From positions 1 to 64,000 of the forward strand of contig NZ_JSEE01000001.1 in assembly GCF_001625355.1 (NCBI RefSeq): DNA of 64,000 nt, read 5' to 3'. The position numbers and the translations under genes were made by a program. This document shows, piece after piece, positions 316 to 49,034 of the stretch (position 1 is its first letter; the number at the start of each line of letters is the position of its first letter). This DNA is from Marinomonas sp. TW1. Lineage in GTDB: Bacteria; Pseudomonadota; Gammaproteobacteria; Pseudomonadales; Marinomonadaceae. The notes under the pieces were generated by a model. It made no database searches. It was not told the DNA's origin and was given only the letters and a program-made list of their open reading frames with translations.

Positions 316-1833
316 TTATTTAATCTCAATCGCTTGAGCTTCGATTTTAGACTTCCATTCTGCAGGGCCAGTAATGTGTACTGACGTACCTTGAGAATCA
401 ACGGCAACCGTGACAGGCATATCCACGACGTCAAATTCATAAATGGCTTCCATCCCTAATTCAGGGAAGGCAATCACATCTGCTTTTTTGATGGCTTTAG
501 AAACCAAGTACGCAGCGCCGCCAACAGCCATCAGATAAACCGCACCGAACTCTTTAATCGCTTCAATTGCAATCGGGCCACGTTCAGATTTACCTATCAT
601 GCCAAGTAGACCCGTTTCATCTAAGATTGTACGAGTAAATTTATCCATCCGAGTTGCTGTTGTTGGGCCAGCAGGACCAACCGCTTCATCTCTTACAGGA
701 TCCACAGGACCAACGTAATAGATAAAGCGACCCTTTAGATCCACGGGCAACTCTTCGCCATTCGCGATCATTTCTACCATTTTCTTATGAGCAGCATCTC
801 GACCTGTTAACATTTTGCCATTAAGCAAAACAGTCTCACCAGGTTGCCACTCTTTAACTTGCTCTGGCGTGATTTCATTAAGATTCACTCGACGAACACT
901 GTCACCCACTTCCCATGTAATTTCTGGCCAATCATCTAAAGATGGTGGCACCAAATCCGCAGGACCAGAACCATCTAACACAAAGTGCGCATGACGAGTC
1001 GCGGCACAGTTAGGAATCATAGCAACAGGCAAAGAAGCAGCATGCGTTGGGTAATCCATGATTTTAACGTCTAATACCGTCGTTAAACCGCCCAGACCTT
1101 GCGCACCGATACCTAAATTATTGACTTCTTCAAAGATGGCTAAGCGCAATTCTTCTACACGGTTTTGCGGGCCGCGTGCTTTTAGCTCATGAATATCGAT
1201 CGGCTCCATTAGAGATTCTTTTGCCATCACCATGGCTTTCTCTGCTGTCCCGCCAATACCTATGCCCAACATACCAGGTGGACACCAGCCCGCGCCCATT
1301 GTTGGTACTGTTTTTTTAACCCATTCTACAATGTCGTCCGATGGATTTAGCATAGCAAGTTTAGATTTATTTTCAGAACCGCCACCTTTCGCTGCCACAT
1401 GCACTTCTACTGTGTCACCTGGCACAATCTCCATATGAATTACGGCTGGCGTATTGTCTTTGGTGTTTTTGCGAGCACCAGCAGGATCATCTAGAATTGA
1501 CGCACGCAAAACATTATCAGGATGAAGATAAGCACGACGCACACCTTCGTTAATCATGTCAGCGACACTTTTCGTGCTTTCCCACTGCACGTTCATGCCG
1601 ACTTTAACAAACACGGTAACGATGCCGGTATCCTGACAAATAGGACGCTTACCTTCCGCACACATACGAGAGTTAATTAGAATCTGTGCCATGGCGTCTT
1701 TCGCCGCCTGACTCTCTTCGCGCTCGTAAGCTTCATGAACCGCATTAACGAAATCGAGTGGATGGTAATAAGAGATAAATTGCAGCGCGTCAGCTACGCT
1801 ATCAATCAAATCATCTTCTTTAATAATGCTCAT
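316..1833 (-). CDS. fumA: Class I fumarate hydratase (4Fe-4S, FumA type)
   Basis: The product interconverts fumarate and malate in the TCA cycle in the cytoplasm, using an oxygen-sensitive 4Fe-4S cluster. The 505-residue single chain carries both the N-terminal alpha and C-terminal beta regions of class I fumarases. Three cysteines with the spacing of E. coli FumA cluster ligands are visible: C66 in ICQDTG, C184 in GWCPPG and C276 in NCAATRH. Glycine-rich stretches follow (GIGIGGT; GPAGPTTATRMD in the beta part). The ATG has a strong AGGAG site 6 bases upstream. It is monocistronic: a terminator of the upstream gene lies before it and its own terminator follows. E. coli FumA is about 40 residues longer; this shorter form is like that of pseudomonads. 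Confidence 0.96.
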   Translation of the reverse strand: MSIIKEDDLIDSVADALQFISYYHPLDFVNAVHEAYEREESQAAKDAMAQILINSRMCAEGKRPICQDTGIVTVFVKVGMNVQWESTKSVADMINEGVRRAYLHPDNVLRASILDDPAGARKNTKDNTPAVIHMEIVPGDTVEVHVAAKGGGSENKSKLAMLNPSDDIVEWVKKTVPTMGAGWCPPGMLGIGIGGTAEKAMVMAKESLMEPIDIHELKARGPQNRVEELRLAIFEEVNNLGIGAQGLGGLTTVLDVKIMDYPTHAASLPVAMIPNCAATRHAHFVLDGSGPADLVPPSLDDWPEITWEVGDSVRRVNLNEITPEQVKEWQPGETVLLNGKMLTGRDAAHKKMVEMIANGEELPVDLKGRFIYYVGPVDPVRDEAVGPAGPTTATRMDKFTRTILDETGLLGMIGKSERGPIAIEAIKEFGAVYLMAVGGAAYLVSKAIKKADVIAFPELGMEAIYEFDVVDMPVTVAVDSQGTSVHITGPAEWKSKIEAQAIEIK

Positions 1834-40923: not shown

Positions 40924-41808
40924 ATGCGTGTCGTAATACTGCTTTCCATTGTACTGATCAGTGCCTTTAATCCAGCACTGGCCGAACCTGACTTTGTCCA
41001 CATAAAACACATGGCACAACTTTCTTCTGATACCTATGAAGCGGCTCAGCAAGAAGACCTCAACACCACCGCTTTAGCCAATAGGCTAGCACAACAAGAC
41101 GAAGTCTTATTACACGATTCCGTCATACCCAATTCGGATGTGCTGTATTTTTTATCGGAAAATGACCAATACCAAACCATCGCGATTCGTGGCACCGCAA
41201 ACCTAAATAATGTCATTGTGGATTTGACGGTTTCTCTGCAACCCAATAAAGCACTGGGCATTCTTCTACATCAAGGGTTTGCCACAGCCGCTCAACAGGT
41301 GCTAGAAGACGTTCGACCCTACTTAAAAAACAACAAACCGATTCGTATTACAGGCCATAGTTTAGGTGGCGCGATTGCGGTGGTATTAGGCATGTTGGTG
41401 CAACAGGAGTCCCTACCGCTTGCCCAAATTACGACATTTGGGCAACCTAAAGTAACCAATGTCGGTGGCGCAAAACAGTTTGCAGACTTGCCTCTGATCC
41501 GTGTCGTAACCCAAGACGACATTGTCCCCTTAGTGCCGCCCATCAGCCCATTACAAATTCGGAATTTGGACATTTTTTGGCACATAGGCGAAGAAATCAT
41601 CTTACTCTCGCCTCACCAATATGCCATTACCCGTGGTCTAAAAAGCGCCATGAGAGCAACCAAATTCACCCATAAATTACCAAGTGACGCTAACTTGCTC
41701 GCCCATACCATGGCGCAATATTTGAGCTTATTAGACCAATTACAGCAGAGCAGACAGGCCATTCCCTATCGCATGGACATCAAGCTATTTGGCATCTCCA
41801 TTGACTAA
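40924..41808 (+). CDS. Secreted class 3-type lipase
   Basis: A 294-residue protein with a signal peptide (about 1-20, NPALA|EP) and the lipase elbow GHSLGGA (S146). An acid and histidine are expected downstream, probably D179 in VTQDDIVPLVPP and a histidine in the last third. The fold and the AIRGT oxyanion segment fit the fungal-type class 3 lipases of bacteria. Likely extracellular or periplasmic; fatty-ester hydrolysis is inferred from family. Its stop overlaps that of the convergent Hsp70 gene by 4 bases, with no terminator between. Confidence 0.85.
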   Translation: MRVVILLSIVLISAFNPALAEPDFVHIKHMAQLSSDTYEAAQQEDLNTTALANRLAQQDEVLLHDSVIPNSDVLYFLSENDQYQTIAIRGTANLNNVIVDLTVSLQPNKALGILLHQGFATAAQQVLEDVRPYLKNNKPIRITGHSLGGAIAVVLGMLVQQESLPLAQITTFGQPKVTNVGGAKQFADLPLIRVVTQDDIVPLVPPISPLQIRNLDIFWHIGEEIILLSPHQYAITRGLKSAMRATKFTHKLPSDANLLAHTMAQYLSLLDQLQQSRQAIPYRMDIKLFGISID

Positions 41809-44504
41809 TCAGAAGATAAGCGTAAACCAATGGGTAAACTCTCGCCCACTAACGAATTTAGCTCTTCCGAGCTGATTTCGACCAGACTATCAAGACGACT
41901 TGCCCATTGTGATGGGCATTTGTCTTTCACTAACTTTTTAGACACTTTCTGACGATAGTCAGACAGCCAATCCGTTTCTCCAGCGGATATCTGACACATT
42001 AATACCGCGGCCAAGCCAGCTTGCTTACGCTTCTTCCAATCTTCTTTTAGTGCTCGATCCAAAATGACCGGCAAATCTGACTCAGGCAGCCGATCAGACG
42101 CTTGCCCAGACAATAGACGGCGAGAAGCAATTCGTCCTAGCGTCCACCAAGCGGTATCAGGCTCAGACGATTTCGCCAAGCGCTTCAACAACCACTCAAC
42201 CAACGTTTGTTTTTCTGACAGTGGCAAACTTTCCAACGCGCCCATCAATCGGATTAGATCATCACTAGAACGGGTTGCCAGCGCTTTCATCTTCTCTCTT
42301 GAACGCTGCCCAGCAGGCGAGTAAAACTGACTAAATTGCTTAAACAAGGTCATTTGTTGATCTAAAGACAAGCCGCCCGCAACACGACGGTATAACGTCC
42401 AATATTGCCCCCAAACGGCCGCACTATCGAACTGAGTACCTGCTTTGGTTAAGTTAATGACTTGCTGAACTCGGTTTTCATCACCTTCGGCACCATAACC
42501 TGGTCGTAAACAGTAGCCTAACAACTGAAGCCACTGGCGTTCATGTTGGGCACTTTTCAGTCGACCGGACTTTAATACCAGTAATTTATCCACCACCCGG
42601 CGAGACGTCGCCAAACTCCAATCATCACGAGCACCAAGCAATTGATCCAAATCTTGTTTTAACGATTTCACCAAATCCGGCGATTGCTTTTGGCCGGCAT
42701 TGGAAAAGCATCGTGCCAAATGCTCTTCTGCTTCACCCATTTTGGCAGCGAGCAGACCTTCACTTTGACGGCTATCACTGTCTTCTGATGCTTGTGTTGA
42801 AAAATCTAACTGCCATTTGTCAGCTGAGCCAACGCCAACCAATTCCAACTGTAAAACACCGACTTCCGTCATTTGTGCCGCGACATTGACCAAGACTTCT
42901 TTACTGTCTTGCTGAGCATCCAACTCAGTGGCCAAGGTAGAAATATAATGCAGACCGGACTCGTCACGCACCTCACCAAGACTGGCTATAATATGGTCAT
43001 CCGCACGATAAAGAGGAAATTGCACTTCCTCTCCCAAGGTCACCATAAAATCCCGTGGCAAAGACAGGCTTTCAGCCGTCAATGTGCCTTTCGGTAAGAT
43101 ACAAACAAACTGCTGTTCTGCCAGTTTTAAATACAAGCTATGCGCTACACCACTCTCAATCCGATGACCTTCTCCAGCCAATGCCTTCAGGTACCAAGCC
43201 GCCCCTTTGGCCACCGCTTCGTTCGGCGCGTCCGCATGACATTCTAAAATCGGCTGTTCAGTCCAGGTATTTAACTGCTTAAGCAACTGATTTTTTAGAA
43301 GCTCACTGTTAAATAAACCACCATTAAAGAGCACCGCATCCGGCATAGATGACTGAGTCGCCTGTTGAATATCCGCTTGGTGTTGTCGAACAAAATCCGC
43401 AACATGACGCGTAAAAGCGGGATCAGATTCATAGGCTAAACCCAGAGTATGCATTGCATATGCGCTTTTATGCACGCTATCGTCCAATGCGACCATAGGG
43501 AAGAAGCCAGAATGAATTTGATCTAATAATGCGGCACGGGAGACATCAAATTTTTGTGCGCCACCAATCAATCGACTGCCACCGCCTAGTACCGTAATGC
43601 TCAAGGAATCAGGGGCGTTATCACTGAGCAAGGTTTCTTTTGCTCGACGGGTTTGCTGCACCAAGGCTGCTAATCGGGAGGCTGATAAAGCAGAGATTTG
43701 CTTCGGGTCCAACTGAAAGGCCAAGGCTTGATCAAGATTATCACCACCCAATAACAGGTGCTCACCAACGGCAATTCGCTTTAAGGCAAGGTGATTTTTC
43801 TTTGTGCCAGGTAAAATTGAGACCAAACTAAAGTCACTGGTACCACCACCAATATCAACCACCAGCAACATCTTTTTATCGGCTAGGCCAGCACGTTTTT
43901 GATCGTCGCTAATATAGTGGTAACACGCCGCTTGCGGTTCTTCTAGTAAAAACAGTTCGTTCAAACCAGCGTTCTTAGCCGCTTCTAGCGTCAATGCTCT
44001 GGCTTCTTCATCGAACGATGCCGGTAAGGTTAACGCCACTTGCTGCTGCTCTAAAGGCGCATCGGAAAATTGCTGATTCCAACTTTGACGAATGTGCTGC
44101 AACAAGAGCTCGCTGGCTTTGAGTGGACTGATTTTATTTTTCAGTTCACTTCCCCACGGCAAAATACCCGCACGGCGATCCACTTGACGATGACTGAGCC
44201 AACTTTTTGCACTTTGCACCAATTGTCCAGCCCGACGCTGACCTAATGCCAAGGCGCCTACACCAACAATGTAGTGTTTCTCTTGGCTATTATGCCAAGG
44301 TAAAACAGGGTCAATTTTACCCTGTTCATCGTCGGCTAAAAGGTAGATGGCACTGGGCAGATAGTCGAACGCTTGTACCGAGGCATCTGCCATAAATTGC
44401 GGCATGGATAATAACAAGGGAGCGGACGAGTCTGGGGCTAAATAAGACACCACACAGTTTGTCGTCCCTAGATCAATACCAACTCGATAAGCGCCTTTTG
44501 ACAT
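41805..44504 (-). CDS. Hsp70-like protein with DUF3731-type C-terminus
   Basis: An 899-residue chaperone-like ATPase. The nucleotide domain (about 1-450) has phosphate 1 GIDLGTTNC, phosphate 2 VVDIGGGTSDFSL and the adenosine-site equivalent LFNGGLFNSELL, replacing DnaK's GGSTRIP. A short beta domain (about 460-590) resembles a reduced substrate-binding domain. A large helical C-terminal region of about 300 residues corresponds to the DUF3731 (DnaK-related) domain in this subfamily; it is rich in W, R and L. No J-domain or GrpE partner adjoins. It is the last gene of the uup-DUF2760-Hsp70-Hsp70 unit, overlapping the previous gene by one base. Client unknown. Confidence 0.9.
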   Translation of the reverse strand: MSKGAYRVGIDLGTTNCVVSYLAPDSSAPLLLSMPQFMADASVQAFDYLPSAIYLLADDEQGKIDPVLPWHNSQEKHYIVGVGALALGQRRAGQLVQSAKSWLSHRQVDRRAGILPWGSELKNKISPLKASELLLQHIRQSWNQQFSDAPLEQQQVALTLPASFDEEARALTLEAAKNAGLNELFLLEEPQAACYHYISDDQKRAGLADKKMLLVVDIGGGTSDFSLVSILPGTKKNHLALKRIAVGEHLLLGGDNLDQALAFQLDPKQISALSASRLAALVQQTRRAKETLLSDNAPDSLSITVLGGGSRLIGGAQKFDVSRAALLDQIHSGFFPMVALDDSVHKSAYAMHTLGLAYESDPAFTRHVADFVRQHQADIQQATQSSMPDAVLFNGGLFNSELLKNQLLKQLNTWTEQPILECHADAPNEAVAKGAAWYLKALAGEGHRIESGVAHSLYLKLAEQQFVCILPKGTLTAESLSLPRDFMVTLGEEVQFPLYRADDHIIASLGEVRDESGLHYISTLATELDAQQDSKEVLVNVAAQMTEVGVLQLELVGVGSADKWQLDFSTQASEDSDSRQSEGLLAAKMGEAEEHLARCFSNAGQKQSPDLVKSLKQDLDQLLGARDDWSLATSRRVVDKLLVLKSGRLKSAQHERQWLQLLGYCLRPGYGAEGDENRVQQVINLTKAGTQFDSAAVWGQYWTLYRRVAGGLSLDQQMTLFKQFSQFYSPAGQRSREKMKALATRSSDDLIRLMGALESLPLSEKQTLVEWLLKRLAKSSEPDTAWWTLGRIASRRLLSGQASDRLPESDLPVILDRALKEDWKKRKQAGLAAVLMCQISAGETDWLSDYRQKVSKKLVKDKCPSQWASRLDSLVEISSEELNSLVGESLPIGLRLSSD

Positions 44505-46249
44505 TAACCTTCCCTCACCTGAAACTCAATTTTCCACTGCAAATCCGAACGAGTATCGTGAGCTTGTAACAGCAACAAACCTAAGTCCGTCACTTGCGCG
44601 GTAACGTAAACACGCACCATCTCACCTTTGTCATAATGCCCCTCATTCAGTTGAATGCTTAATCGGTTCAATTCGTTTAGCTGCGCCAAGGAGAAAGAAG
44701 AAATGACCTTACCCAAGGGTTCGGCTTCACTTTTTGGCGATTGAAAGAAGCGAAAATGAACGGGCTCACCCACAACCAATGAAAACTCATTTGGCAGCAT
44801 TTGTTCATCACTGCCTTCTTCCAACCCAAAAGGTGCCACACAGATAGCATCCACTGGAGGTGGCATACCCGGTATCGCCGGCATGGGACTGGCAACCCCT
44901 ATGTAATAGTTTGCCGCTAAACCGCTTTTTACTTTGACGCCACCATTGGCTTGCACCTGAGCATAATAAGTCGCGCCCTTCGCCACCGCATGATCTAGGT
45001 GAGCAGGCGTCAACATAGTAAATTCAGCGCCGTCAAGCAGCTCACTCAGTCGAGAAGACAAACTTGTCACCATAGGCGAGGCGTTAAACACACCACCGTT
45101 TAGCAAGACTTTGCCCGGTTTCGCCTGATGTTGACCTAGGAACTCACTGATATGCCGAGTAATCGCAGGATCACTTTCGTAATCCAAATTGATTGTACTG
45201 ATACCAGATCGAGCTACTTTTTGAGCTTGCTCACCCGCACTCACCGCAGGGAAAAAGCCGTCAATTAATAACTGCTGAACATCCGTTTGCGTTAACGTCG
45301 CTTTGATGCTTTTGTTGAAAATACTGCGCCCACGACTTGGTACCACAACCGAAGTCTCCGTTAACTCTGGATTGGCTAACAGACGCTCTTTCGCATCGCG
45401 ACATGCTTGAGTCAAACCGCTAATTTGCCACGCCTCAAACTGGGTTCCTTGTTGCGCCAATTGCCCAGCCAAATGGTAAGTTAAGGTCATGTCCATATTA
45501 TCGCCGCCAAGTAAAATATGACGACCAACGGCAATGCGCTCTAAGCCCAACGAACCAGACTCTTCAGTCACTTGAATCAAAGATAAGTCAGTGGTGCCCC
45601 CACCGACATCAACCACAAGAATTTGTTCGCCTAGCGTTAACTGACTTTGCCAATCCTGCTGATCCGCTAACCAAGCGTAAAAGGCCGCCAAAGGCTCTTC
45701 GATGAGTCGCGCCCTTAACCCGACTTTCTCGGCCGCTTGCTCAGTGACGGTGCGAGCCGCTGGGTCGAATGATGCAGGAACCGTGATGACGACCTCTTGC
45801 TGTGACATAGGTGCCATTGGAAAAGCCTGATTCCAAGCAGACACTAAATGATCAAGCAAGCTCTCAGTCACCTGTGCTGGTGACACCTTGTCGACTTCGT
45901 CCAAAGCATCGATTGGCAATACCGCTTCGTCAGGCCCAACTTGCGAATGGCATAACCAACTTTTCGAACTTTGCACCATACGACCAGATGACTTTGCCCC
46001 TAACTCACGAGCCAGTTGACCAAGAATGCTTGAAGTTTTCCCCCATGGTAACTGTAAGTCACTTTCAAGAAATTCCGTGGCATGGGGGTAATACACAAAG
46101 GACGGCAATAATGGACGTTCTACCACCTGCCCTGCGGCACTTAATTGAGGAATCAGTAATTGTTGTAAGCCTAGCGCCTTCTTTTTCTCTGAAAAGTAGA
46201 CAGCCGAATGCGTGGTACCTAAATCGATACCAATGACATAGTCACTCAT
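44504..46249 (-). CDS. Hsp70-like protein, short form without lid
   Basis: A 581-residue Hsp70 relative. The ATPase domain has GIDLGTTHS, VVDVGGGTTDLSL and LLNGGVFNASP in place of GGSTRIP, as in its partner. After about residue 435 it holds only a beta-type substrate-domain remnant, with a proline-rich MPAIPGMPPPV stretch near 460, and ends at VREG without the helical lid or a DnaJ-binding EEVD tail. It lies 2 bases after DUF2760 and overlaps the long Hsp70 start by one base, so the two Hsp70s are likely made in step and may act together. Not DnaK, HscA or HscC by domain layout. Confidence 0.9.
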   Translation of the reverse strand: MSDYVIGIDLGTTHSAVYFSEKKKALGLQQLLIPQLSAAGQVVERPLLPSFVYYPHATEFLESDLQLPWGKTSSILGQLARELGAKSSGRMVQSSKSWLCHSQVGPDEAVLPIDALDEVDKVSPAQVTESLLDHLVSAWNQAFPMAPMSQQEVVITVPASFDPAARTVTEQAAEKVGLRARLIEEPLAAFYAWLADQQDWQSQLTLGEQILVVDVGGGTTDLSLIQVTEESGSLGLERIAVGRHILLGGDNMDMTLTYHLAGQLAQQGTQFEAWQISGLTQACRDAKERLLANPELTETSVVVPSRGRSIFNKSIKATLTQTDVQQLLIDGFFPAVSAGEQAQKVARSGISTINLDYESDPAITRHISEFLGQHQAKPGKVLLNGGVFNASPMVTSLSSRLSELLDGAEFTMLTPAHLDHAVAKGATYYAQVQANGGVKVKSGLAANYYIGVASPMPAIPGMPPPVDAICVAPFGLEEGSDEQMLPNEFSLVVGEPVHFRFFQSPKSEAEPLGKVISSFSLAQLNELNRLSIQLNEGHYDKGEMVRVYVTAQVTDLGLLLLQAHDTRSDLQWKIEFQVREG

Positions 46250-46251
46250 GA

Positions 46252-46845
46252 TTACACCTCGACTTCAGCAGGCGCCAGAATAGATAAGGTTTGGGTTTGG
46301 CTGACCTTAGGCAAGCGTACGTCTGTCACTTGCCAGCCTGGGTGAATCAAACTCCCCGTATATGGCCCCATTCCTTCGACACGACCTTCCAGCTTAATTT
46401 GCTGGGCATCATAATCCACAGGGACAGTCACCGAGGTATTTTCAGGGGCTGAATTGACCACTTCTATAGTAAAGTTTTGCGCCAAAACCTTGTGGCTAGC
46501 AGCGTGAATTTGACGCGCTGCAGCCCCCACTTCTTCATCAGAATAGGCGTCGATGCTTTCCTGTATGAAGTCGATAAAACGCGCTTCTTGCTGTAAAAGT
46601 TGCAGCAATTGCAATGCGCCATCGGTATTAACCGATGCGAGAGTCGGTGGTGCTACCTCGATCTCGCGAATCACTTCCACCTCTTCGGTAATGACTTTCG
46701 GTTCGACTTCAAAGGCCAACTTTTCGCCTTGCCCAATGGCAAGACAACGCGCCGCGTAATCACCATTGCTCAAATATTTAAAAAACTGACCAAAGGCGCC
46801 AAATAAGCGCGGAATAAAAGACACTTTTGTTAATGTTTGACTCAT
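46252..46845 (-). CDS. DUF2760 protein
   Basis: A 197-residue cytoplasmic protein of unknown function. It starts with an amphipathic, aromatic helix (FIPRLFGAFGQFFKYL) that could touch a membrane or partner, then an acidic linker. The DUF2760 core follows (about 75-190), with the landmarks GALQLLQLLQQEARFIDFIQE, DEEVGAAARQIHA and GSLIHPGWQV. The family is repeatedly found beside Hsp70-like genes, as here. It starts 3 bases past the uup stop, with GGA inside the end of uup, and ends 2 bases before the short Hsp70. Confidence 0.88.
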   Translation of the reverse strand: MSQTLTKVSFIPRLFGAFGQFFKYLSNGDYAARCLAIGQGEKLAFEVEPKVITEEVEVIREIEVAPPTLASVNTDGALQLLQLLQQEARFIDFIQESIDAYSDEEVGAAARQIHAASHKVLAQNFTIEVVNSAPENTSVTVPVDYDAQQIKLEGRVEGMGPYTGSLIHPGWQVTDVRLPKVSQTQTLSILAPAEVEV

Positions 46846-46848
46846 GTT

Positions 46849-48765
46849 TTATCCGTTCTGCATTTCTTCTAACTCAAGCCAACGCTCCATTGTTGTCTCC
46901 AGTTCTTGTTCTTTTTCGGCCATTTTCGCTAAGGTGTCCTGTACCTTTTGCGCATCGCCGCTGTAAAAATCTGCTGCGCCGGTTATTTGCTGAAAGGTTT
47001 CCAGCTCAGCTTCTAACTTAGCAATGGCATCTGGCATGCCATCAAACTCTCGTTGTAATTTATAGCTCAGTTTGTTTTTTACTTTGCTGACCTCAGCTGG
47101 TTTGTTGACATCACCAGTCGATGTATCCGCTTTTTGTTTGGGCTTTGTCTCCGTCGTCTGTGACGTTGATTCTGTTGGGAACTTACCGCCCTGACGAATC
47201 CAATCTTGATAACCGCCCACGTATTCTCGTACTCGCCCTTCACCCTCAAAGGCAATAACGCTGGTCACCACATTGTCTAGAAAAGCACGATCGTGACTCA
47301 CCAATAACAAGGTACCATCGTAGTTCATTAATAACTCTTCCAGTAACTCAAGAGTTTCAACGTCTAGGTCATTGGTCGGTTCGTCCATCACCAAAAGGTT
47401 CGCAGGCTTAGTAAAGAGTTTCGCCAGCAAGACGCGGTTTCGCTCACCACCGGATAACGCTTTCACCGGAGTACGTGCTCGCTCTGGCGGAAACAGGAAG
47501 TCCCCTAGGTAACCAATGACGTGTTTATTCTGGCCATTGATTTCAATGGTTTCTTTGCCTTCACCGACGTTTTCCGCCACGGTTTGTTCTGGGTTAAGCT
47601 GCTCTCGTAACTGATCAAAATACGCAACGTTGAGTTTCGTACCTTGGCGCACTGTGCCTGAACTCGGCTCTAAATCCCCTAACAGGATTTTTAAGAAAGT
47701 ACTCTTACCACAACCGTTCGGACCGATTAAACCAATGCGATCACCGCGATTAACCATGAAGTCCATTGGCTGCAGAATCACTTTGTCTTCGAATGCATGA
47801 CCGACTTGCGCAAACTCAGCGACCAACTTACCGGATTTCTCTTTGGTCTCAATCGACATTTTAGCGTTGCCTTGACGATCAATGCGCTCTGAACGCTCAA
47901 CTCGCAAGGCCTTCAATGCTCTGACTCGACCTTCATTACGAGTTCGACGAGCTTTGATCCCCTGTCGAATCCAAACTTCTTCTTCGGCCAAACGTTTATC
48001 GAATAAGGCATTGGCACGCTCTTCTTCTTCCAAGAGCTTTTCTTTGAAGACTAAAAATTCATTAATATTGCCAGTAAAAGACAACAAATTACCGCGATCT
48101 AATTCGACAATACGATTGGCCAATTTTTCAAGGAAGCGTCTATCGTGGGTAATAAACAGAATTAAACCGCGAAACTGTAATAGCTGCTGCTCCATCCATT
48201 CGATGGTCGGTACATCCAAATGGTTGGTTGGCTCATCCAGTAGTAAGACGTCTGGTGCCGAAATCAAAGCTTGCGCTAAAATGACTCGACGACGCCAACC
48301 GCCAGACAATTCAGACATCAACTTATCTGCCGGTAACGCCAAACGCTGAATCATGTGATTGACGCGCTGCTCTAAATCCCAACCTTGTAAACGATCGAGA
48401 TCATTTTGAATGTGGCCCAGTTCATCAGAATGATCCTGTTCGAAGTCTTCTAGCAACTTAAAATATCGCGTCATCAATTGATGTATTTCGCCCGCGCCTT
48501 CACTGACTACTTCGCGTACCGTTTTACCATTTGCTTCTGGTAGCTCTTGTGGCAATTGCGCAATGCGCATTCCACCCTCAAGACGCACCACACCTTCATC
48601 TGGAATTTGTTCGCCAGATACCACTTTTAAAAAGGTTGATTTGCCAGCGCCATTACGACCAATGATTGCAACACGTTCACCCGCTTCGGCGGAAAAACTG
48701 ATTTTTGATAACAGCGGGTTATGCCCAAATGCAACACTTACCTGCTCTAAAGACAATAGACTCAT
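46849..48765 (-). CDS. uup: ABC-F ATPase Uup
   Basis: Soluble ABC-F proteins bind ribosomes or, in Uup's case, act on ribosome assembly and DNA tandem-repeat stability. The 638 residues contain two nucleotide-binding domains, with Walker A GRNGAGKST and GPNGCGKST, signatures LSGGWRRRV and LSGGERNRV, and Walker B LLLDEPTNHLDV and LVMDEPTNDLDV. A C-terminal coiled coil (about 555-635) distinguishes Uup from EttA and YheS. No membrane segment. GGA lies 5 bases before the ATG. It is first in the four-gene unit with DUF2760 and the two Hsp70s. Confidence 0.93.
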   Translation of the reverse strand: MSLLSLEQVSVAFGHNPLLSKISFSAEAGERVAIIGRNGAGKSTFLKVVSGEQIPDEGVVRLEGGMRIAQLPQELPEANGKTVREVVSEGAGEIHQLMTRYFKLLEDFEQDHSDELGHIQNDLDRLQGWDLEQRVNHMIQRLALPADKLMSELSGGWRRRVILAQALISAPDVLLLDEPTNHLDVPTIEWMEQQLLQFRGLILFITHDRRFLEKLANRIVELDRGNLLSFTGNINEFLVFKEKLLEEEERANALFDKRLAEEEVWIRQGIKARRTRNEGRVRALKALRVERSERIDRQGNAKMSIETKEKSGKLVAEFAQVGHAFEDKVILQPMDFMVNRGDRIGLIGPNGCGKSTFLKILLGDLEPSSGTVRQGTKLNVAYFDQLREQLNPEQTVAENVGEGKETIEINGQNKHVIGYLGDFLFPPERARTPVKALSGGERNRVLLAKLFTKPANLLVMDEPTNDLDVETLELLEELLMNYDGTLLLVSHDRAFLDNVVTSVIAFEGEGRVREYVGGYQDWIRQGGKFPTESTSQTTETKPKQKADTSTGDVNKPAEVSKVKNKLSYKLQREFDGMPDAIAKLEAELETFQQITGAADFYSGDAQKVQDTLAKMAEKEQELETTMERWLELEEMQNG

Positions 48766-48943
48766 ATCTATCCAGTTATAATAGGGAAAATTTGTGGCGC
48801 TATCATATCACTCTTCCTTTGGAAGGTTTAGCTTAGAGCTTGCCTTTAAGTAAGAACTTAAGATTAAAAAGTTTTTTAGCCGACATTAAGAGTGTGTTGG
48901 GAGCAATTTCAGACATGCGGAAAAAATAAATAACTGATATAAC

Positions 48944-48991
48944 GACATTCTATATGTCTAAAACAGTTTTTCTTTATATTATTTAATATAA
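48944..48991 (+). promoter_or_regulatory. Two dyads in the efflux operon promoter region
   Basis: GACAT-TCTAT-ATGTC (48944-48958) and TTATATTA-TT-TAATATAA (48974-48991) lie 44-91 bases before the adaptor start. A -10-like TATAAC follows at about 49010. Such dyads are typical binding sites of TetR-type efflux regulators, but no regulator gene lies beside the operon. Nothing else was seen in 48766-49034. Confidence 0.45.
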
Positions 48992-49034
48992 TTATTTCGT
49001 TATAACTACACATTTAAAATTCACGGAGTGGTAG

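Follow-up and report, generated by a model that had tools for sequence, protein, structure and literature searches.

Bacterial Hsp70s are usually described as three families, DnaK, HscA and HscC, all of which have J-proteins as partners, and HscC, a specialized member thought to act independently of GrpE, is linked by gene position to the membrane-anchored partners DjlB and DjlC (PMC8215388). Here we analyzed a minus-strand run of four genes in a 64,000-nucleotide (nt) stretch of Marinomonas sp. TW1 (the window, on contig C1), which encodes the ABC-F ATPase Uup, a protein of the Pfam family DUF2760 and two Hsp70-like proteins that we name HspA and HspB. The spacing is +3 nt between uup and DUF2760 and +2 nt between DUF2760 and hspA, followed by a 1-nt overlap of hspA and hspB, so that the computed coordinates agree with an earlier note on this DNA, which had described a tight run. 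We find that DUF2760, hspA and hspB form a real unit that is inherited almost all-or-none, and that its two Hsp70s lie outside the DnaK, HscA and HscC families by the tests made. Conservation shows the unit; for its mechanism, we infer with some preference over the alternatives that the trio is a self-contained, specialized Hsp70 machine standing beside the DnaK system, with Uup a chance neighbor.

The unity of the trio is seen in its distribution. DUF2760 was found in 39 of 56 genomes in a search of relatives (the window's own genome included), namely 34 of 35 Marinomonas genomes and 5 of 21 from the order. A survey of the class (369 genomes) gave DUF2760 in 13 and DUF3731, the family at the C-terminus of HspB, in 14, with 13 shared; a survey of the phylum (398 genomes) gave 28 and 27, with 27 shared; and five further members of the order hold both (5/5). 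Taken together, with two genomes common to both surveys, both families are present in 43 of the 45 distinct genomes holding either. Both exceptions are loci cut by contig ends: in one (G228) the contig edge interrupts the locus at hspA, on the side expected for DUF2760, and in the other (G442) only 82 bases separate the 3′ end of hspA from the edge, on the side expected for hspB. Outside Marinomonas, 105 loci were examined and DUF2760 is present in 103; hspA lies directly 3′ of it in 103/103, and in 76 the two genes overlap, by 1 or 4 nt. These loci are not independent of one another because the sample is heavy in Vibrio and Massilia (69 were drawn from the best 80 of at least 567 loci). Of the 92 loci in which 3 kb of downstream sequence was available, 83 have hspB there, at a distance of no more than 600 nt in 80 cases (the count leaves out L207, a short cross-match). 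Hosts of the trio include Marinomonas, Vibrio, Massilia, Duganella, Burkholderia, Comamonas, Methylococcales and Accumulibacter, as well as metagenome-assembled genomes labeled Myxococcales, Deltaproteobacteria and Riflebacteria. The dedicated gene set with DUF2760 as likely co-factor that the earlier note had envisaged is thus near all-or-none and mostly adjacent across many bacteria.

Some loci are arranged differently. Unrelated genes lie 3′ of hspA in L093 (11361-14281), L217 (12610-16226) and L209 (from 12640), in L093 and L209 among them a gene on the opposite strand that looks by eye porin-like; hspB is found 2.9 kb further on in L093 and 3.6 kb further on in L217 and was not seen in L209. 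At the hspB position of L095 (6804-9403) are genes for a 503-residue protein and what appears by eye to be a MoxR-like AAA ATPase, with hspB on another contig. In L035 (11442-14169), from the fragmented genome G047, hspB appears to be in two pieces in different frames, through either a frameshift or an assembly error. Visual inspection of the open reading frames surrounding 21 unusual loci revealed no recognizable J-protein gene within or beside the trio; two HPD strings near these loci are in distant open reading frames, apparently out of frame. Searches of the window's own genome found no DnaJ, GrpE or J-domain gene on contig C1, as the earlier note had said of the neighborhood: dnaK, dnaJ and grpE are all on contig C12, and the remaining three J-domain matches are on contigs C8, C2 and C5.

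HspA and HspB belong to the Hsp70 superfamily. Both score above the gathering cut-off of the Pfam HSP70 model (PF00012, cut-off 20.6; HspA 79.1 bits, E 2.8e-22; HspB 62.1 bits, E 4.1e-17) and both keep the ATP-site residues. Against the family models their scores are far below the cut-offs: 53 and 71 bits for the DnaK model TIGR02350 (cut-off 822.55), or 53-76 bits when PRK00290 is included (cut-offs 823 and 648), and 90 and 92 bits for the HscA model TIGR01991 (cut-off 708.55), or 87-93 bits with PRK05183 (cut-offs 709 and 620). No HscC equivalog was among the NCBIfam models listed. A tree of 27 rows separates HspA and HspB from DnaK, HscA and HscC with support of 100/100; Escherichia coli HscC, on a long branch, falls with DnaK and HscA, which places the trio's proteins apart from HscC too. 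The window's HspB is itself on a long branch. In the window's own genome, DnaK is the only strong HSP70 match besides the trio and no HscA-like match was found; weak matches, named by eye, are YegD-like (contig C58) and MreB-like (contig C3). An alignment of HspA with HspB spans 597 columns (32% identity, E 1.4e-168), and the two are therefore paralogues, with the C-terminal DUF3731 as an extra part of HspB.

To describe conserved positions we used alignments of 45 HspA and 39 HspB sequences, picked for diversity and intact ends, and DnaK numbering. The ATPase residues D8, T11, K70, E171, D194, T199 and D201 are invariant (45/45 HspA and 39/39 HspB). In DnaK, N170, T173, V218 and R167, together with the residues of the interdomain linker, matter for J-domain action and allostery. 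Across the 84 trio sequences, linker residues L390-L392 and D393 are kept in none, the V389 position being I or V in all 84, so that neither protein has a canonical hydrophobic linker of the VLLLD type. N170 is replaced by E and V218 by R in 84/84; T173 is likewise never kept, with Q in 76. R167 is kept in 25 of the 84 (20/39 HspB and 5/45 HspA, the window's HspA among them). Because several of these replacements are themselves invariant, another conserved partner probably contacts the E170/R218 surface. The GGSTRIP adenosine motif is altered as well. The earlier note had read it as NGGxFN in both proteins; the NGG holds across the families (N at the DnaK V340 position in 45/45 HspA and 38/39 HspB) and the FN does not, the DnaK R345 position being K in 38/45 and N in 6/45 HspA and N in 12/39 HspB.

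The two paralogues differ most at their C-termini, where both ends are as first read from this sequence. HspA terminates just after the beta substrate-binding domain and has no lid; the same end is found in 43 of 45 homologues, the other two having a longer C-terminal tail. Near the start of its beta domain HspA carries an inserted Pro-rich loop, MPAxPGMxPP, with near-invariant Met-Pro and Pro-Gly, at what is presumably about the position of the arch that covers the peptide in DnaK. HspB ends in DUF3731 (PF12531, residues 651-896, E 2.8e-73). Its predicted structure (m02f8d603afa1; predicted local distance difference test score, pLDDT, 82.6; predicted template modeling score, pTM, 0.61) joins a DnaK-like ATPase domain to a beta domain and an extended helical C-terminus. 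It has DnaK 4b9q as its top Foldseek match (E 1.6e-24), and VIA-align gives Z 36.4 to DnaK 2v7y over 347 residues and Z 36.1 to the DnaK model 9a5j over 461 aligned residues.

The window's DUF2760 protein matches PF10816 with 160.2 bits (E 2.5e-47, cut-off 25). A model built from 22 sequences (m2c478f76b728; pLDDT 80.2, pTM 0.54) places N-terminal helices first, the segment in the window's protein being amphipathic-looking, then a low-confidence linker, a helical hairpin (74-95 and 103-124) and short strands. Among 58 DUF2760 sequences, Q85, R89, D92, F93, E96, D103, R111 and H114, in the region of the hairpin, are invariant, as are G154, G158, P161, G164, H168, G170, W171, P179 and E196. The C-terminal tail is also conserved, reading EVEL, EVEV or a near variant (about 46255-46275 in the window). 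EEVD tails end the eukaryotic Hsp70 and Hsp90 proteins and are loosely alike; by this analogy the DUF2760 end may be a docking tail. Two candidate identities gained no support from profile comparison. As a hidden GrpE, DUF2760 has a similar order of helices then strands, the hhalign probability is 0.1% (with shallow profiles, Neff about 3), and Foldseek gave one weak GrpE row (3a6m, E 4.2). The J-domain identity was rejected: there is no HPD in the 22-row alignment, and the hhalign probability is 0.2%. DUF2760 thus has no detectable similarity to either. Furthermore, the model had no Foldseek match at E ≤0.001 (best 0.24), its best VIA-align Z was 4.7 among 434 chains compared, and the profile searched against the sequences of the PDB returned a single row at E 0.51, none being a close solved structure. 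The N-terminus is of a membrane type (mean hydropathy ≥1.6) in 21 of the 58 sequences and less hydrophobic in the others.

Hints about expression come from the Vibrio-type loci. Among 27 of these (L162, L163 and L169 assigned by gene content), a recurring upstream element, CTTGAATATGCTAGTATCC(G/A)CCCCAATTT, has TTGA(A/T) in 24; in 18 of those 24 the second box also carries CCC, which no other locus does. It resembles a sigma32 promoter, and an extended -10 reading is also possible. For comparison, the upstream regions of the window genome's own grpE and dnaK reach sigma32-like scores of 14/15 and 13/15 (shuffle p 0.005 and 0/200). In 8 of the 9 Vibrio-type loci inspected for it, DUF2760 has a divergent upstream neighbor with a GGDEF motif (for example L240 7888-9468 and L254 7920-9488), which adjoins a 176-residue gene that looks by eye exonuclease-like; VC1376 of Vibrio cholerae is a GGDEF gene. 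VC1375-VC1374-VC1373 are likely orthologues of the trio, because of this divergent gene and because two papers list VC1373-1375 as an operon with 'DnaK-related' names (PMC9201469, PMC5816637). In published reports, the VC1375 promoter is activated by HapR in vivo and in vitro (PMC10328515), VC1374 is among the genes of a screen for those repressed in biofilms (PMC9201469) and, in a polymyxin B study, among the transcripts whose levels in a vc1639 mutant are not those of the wild type (log2 -2.68; PMC5636140), and VC1373 is listed at -1.039 in a study of riboflavin and iron (PMC5816637). These reports point, weakly, to control by growth phase or envelope stress. Papers on a 'DnaK-related protein' of Thiodictyon and of Photobacterium gave no tie to the trio and are set aside.

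Based on these observations we favor, as stated, a specialized Hsp70 machine made of the trio. In such a machine HspA and HspB would both bind and hydrolyze ATP, as their invariant active site suggests, and, as paralogues of unequal build, would function as a pair. HspA would be the lidless subunit that grips clients, its Pro-rich loop tailored to a place near the peptide cleft, and HspB would use its helical DUF3731 domain in place of a lid to hold clients, to contact a partner or to serve as an Hsp110-like exchange factor. DUF2760 would be the dedicated co-chaperone and localizer, doing for the pair what J-proteins and GrpE do for DnaK, and may sit at a membrane in many species. The formation of a complex, the direction of the cycle, the clients, the membrane site and a heat induction (suggested by the sigma32-like promoter, in Vibrio only) are the parts of this mechanism that we infer. 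A more specific version, which we offer tentatively and regard as doubtful, is independent of J-proteins and GrpE: HspA and HspB would alternate as a heteromer, and their cycle would be driven by a structurally new, often membrane-tethered DUF2760, whose invariant hairpin (R89, D92, F93, E96, D103, R111 and H114) would dock at the E170/R218 surface, where J-domains dock on DnaK.

Several findings weigh against the favored reading. In 9 of the 92 loci with room, hspB was not within the examined flank; the four checked genomes that have room and lack an adjacent hspB (G253, G357, G464 and G052) each carry it elsewhere. In the tree, a YegD-like row from the window's own genome joins the side of HspA and HspB, its branch being very long and its place unsure, and neither HspA nor HspB forms a clean single group; the N-terminal ends of many homologues depend on automatic choice of the start. 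The window's DUF2760 has no transmembrane segment (best 19-residue mean hydropathy 0.82), so that the membrane anchor proposed in the earlier note fits 21 of 58 homologues and not the window's own protein. No sigma32-like site was found 5′ of uup, where the region scores 9/15 (shuffle p 0.99), and a p of 0.05 was reached by only 5 of 34 upstream regions, four of them Vibrio-type. Finally, the V. cholerae reports (HapR, polymyxin, biofilm) are not classic heat shock.

The likeliest alternative, though we consider it unlikely, is that general chaperone work is not the task of HspA and HspB. Instead they would be ATP-driven switches or scaffolds that serve a single fixed partner, perhaps at a membrane, and put Hsp70 folds to use in regulated assembly. 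The loss of the LLLD linker in 84/84 sequences and of the lid in HspA would suit such proteins, as would the membrane-type DUF2760 of 21/58 homologues, and the loop near the HspA peptide cleft is conserved rather than variable, which suggests a fixed partner; the beta substrate-binding domain, however, is retained in both paralogues, and the Vibrio loci carry the sigma32-like element. It is improbable that the trio is auxiliary to DnaK and uses the ordinary DnaJ and GrpE, for instance as a holdase for the DnaK system: the genome does have DnaK, DnaJ and GrpE, and R167 survives in the 20 HspB and 5 HspA sequences noted above, the window's HspA included, but N170, T173, V218, L390-L392 and D393 are replaced in every one of the 84.

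The remaining alternative concerns Uup. The protein scores 871 bits over its full length against the NCBIfam Uup equivalog (cut-off 900), 839 bits against PRK11147 (cut-off 936) and 476 bits against the EttA model. The order uup-DUF2760-hspA-hspB is kept in 34/34 trio-bearing Marinomonas genomes, that is the window and 33 others (the 44 Marinomonas loci are those of the 33 genomes plus 11 loci overlapping them in species). As uup and DUF2760 are separated by 3-32 nt in all 34, they are likely co-transcribed in this genus. None of the 97 loci outside Marinomonas that offer 2.5 kb of room has uup 5′ of DUF2760; these loci too are not independent, being of the same Vibrio- and Massilia-heavy sample. 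One Marinomonas genome (G012) lacks DUF2760, DUF3731 and HspA genome-wide, the best match to an HspA query being its own DnaK at 28%, and keeps uup. At its locus (L159, C1:590000-609000) uup stands alone between the same flanks, lipase and efflux genes, a clean absence of the trio that amounts to a natural deletion. In a Uup tree the G012 protein groups with the window's clade (92/96, just below the tool's star) and sits in a 27-row group (99/96) in which the other 26 rows all have the trio; the simplest reading is that the trio was lost and uup retained. Because Uup is a neighbor in one genus only, we judge it a bystander and do not count it as part of the unit. The co-occurrence survey of uup, DUF2760 and hsp70 that the earlier note had proposed thus shows, at the level of the genus, linkage to uup in one lineage and DUF2760-Hsp70 loci without it elsewhere, the outcome that the note had named as refuting its idea, here for a genus in place of a strain. 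A chaperone system tied to Uup and acting at the ribosome or on nascent chains, as that note had supposed, is very improbable, since it rested on uup being next door, true of one genus only, and has the likely co-transcription there as its sole support.

Features of the locus in the window, with the approximate domain limits of HspB
Feature	Position	Strand	Length	Remarks
uup (ABC-F ATPase)	46849-48765	-	638 residues	Just below the NCBIfam Uup cut-off; first gene of the run, in this genus only
DUF2760 gene	46252-46845	-	197 residues	PF10816
hspA (lidless Hsp70, named here)	44504-46249	-	581 residues	PF00012
hspB (Hsp70 with C-terminal DUF3731, named here)	41805-44504	-	899 residues	PF00012 and PF12531
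Intergenic region 5′ of uup	48766-49034			Presumed operon promoter region
Lipase-like gene	40924-41808	+		Convergent to hspB
Efflux adaptor and resistance-nodulation-division (RND)-type pump gene	from 49035	+		Pump named by eye
HspB ATPase domain	residues ~4-446
HspB beta domain	residues ~457-568
HspB helical C-terminus	residues ~589-886			Holds DUF3731

At their 3′ ends, hspB and the lipase-like gene that converges on it share 4 nt (41805-41808). Promoter-like sites between 41500 and 49200 number 3 against a shuffle mean of 9.3, which is not above chance. A search for constant neighbors of the trio in other clades yielded clusters that are clade-local as far as read (the 25 largest). A role in anti-phage defense was also considered and rejected: in PADLOC, DUF2760 had no match and the Hsp70 part alone reached 24-27 bits. 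The PHROGs family phrog_22485, of unknown function, is matched by HspA at 72 bits and by HspB at 61 bits, again in the Hsp70 part; PHROGs gave no match for DUF2760, and a single-sequence search of viral contigs returned no relative of it.

The Pfam families DUF2760 and DUF3731 are already known, and we found no description of the trio itself; neither the family names nor PF10816 and PF12531 were mentioned in the literature searched, a search that most subscription journals lay outside. The trio adds another widespread set to the bacterial Hsp70s, one whose ATPase site is intact but which lacks the standard linker and most of the J-contact residues. If it folds clients, it would be a second solution to Hsp70 allostery and co-chaperone control, and one that is directly testable.

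Compared with DnaK-DnaJ-GrpE, HspA and HspB share the Hsp70 ATPase fold, the active-site residues and the beta substrate-binding domain. In contrast to that system, the trio has two unequal Hsp70s, a lidless HspA, DUF3731 on HspB and no LLLD linker, and DUF2760 takes the place of a linked DnaJ or GrpE. HscA-HscB offers a second likeness, in that its Hsp70 is dedicated and has a gene partner of its own, and the HscA models are the best-scoring NCBIfam ones for HspA and HspB; unlike in HscA-HscB, no J-domain gene is on the window's contig. DnaK, HscA and HscC of E. coli all keep R167, N170, T173, V218 and D393, whereas HspA and HspB replace all of these but some R167; the linker of E. coli HscC is itself divergent (VILTD), yet keeps D393. 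Hsp110 or Sse1 with Hsp70 likewise pairs two Hsp70 homologues of which one is larger, and the Foldseek rows of the HspB model include Sse1 (2qxl) and Hsp110:Hsc70 (3c7n), matches that reflect the common Hsp70 fold. HscC with DjlB and DjlC, gene neighbors also seen in this analysis, resembles the trio as a specialized Hsp70 gene-linked to its partners, which in the HscC system are membrane-anchored; HscC, however, has J-proteins, whereas the partners in the trio are a paralogous Hsp70 and DUF2760.

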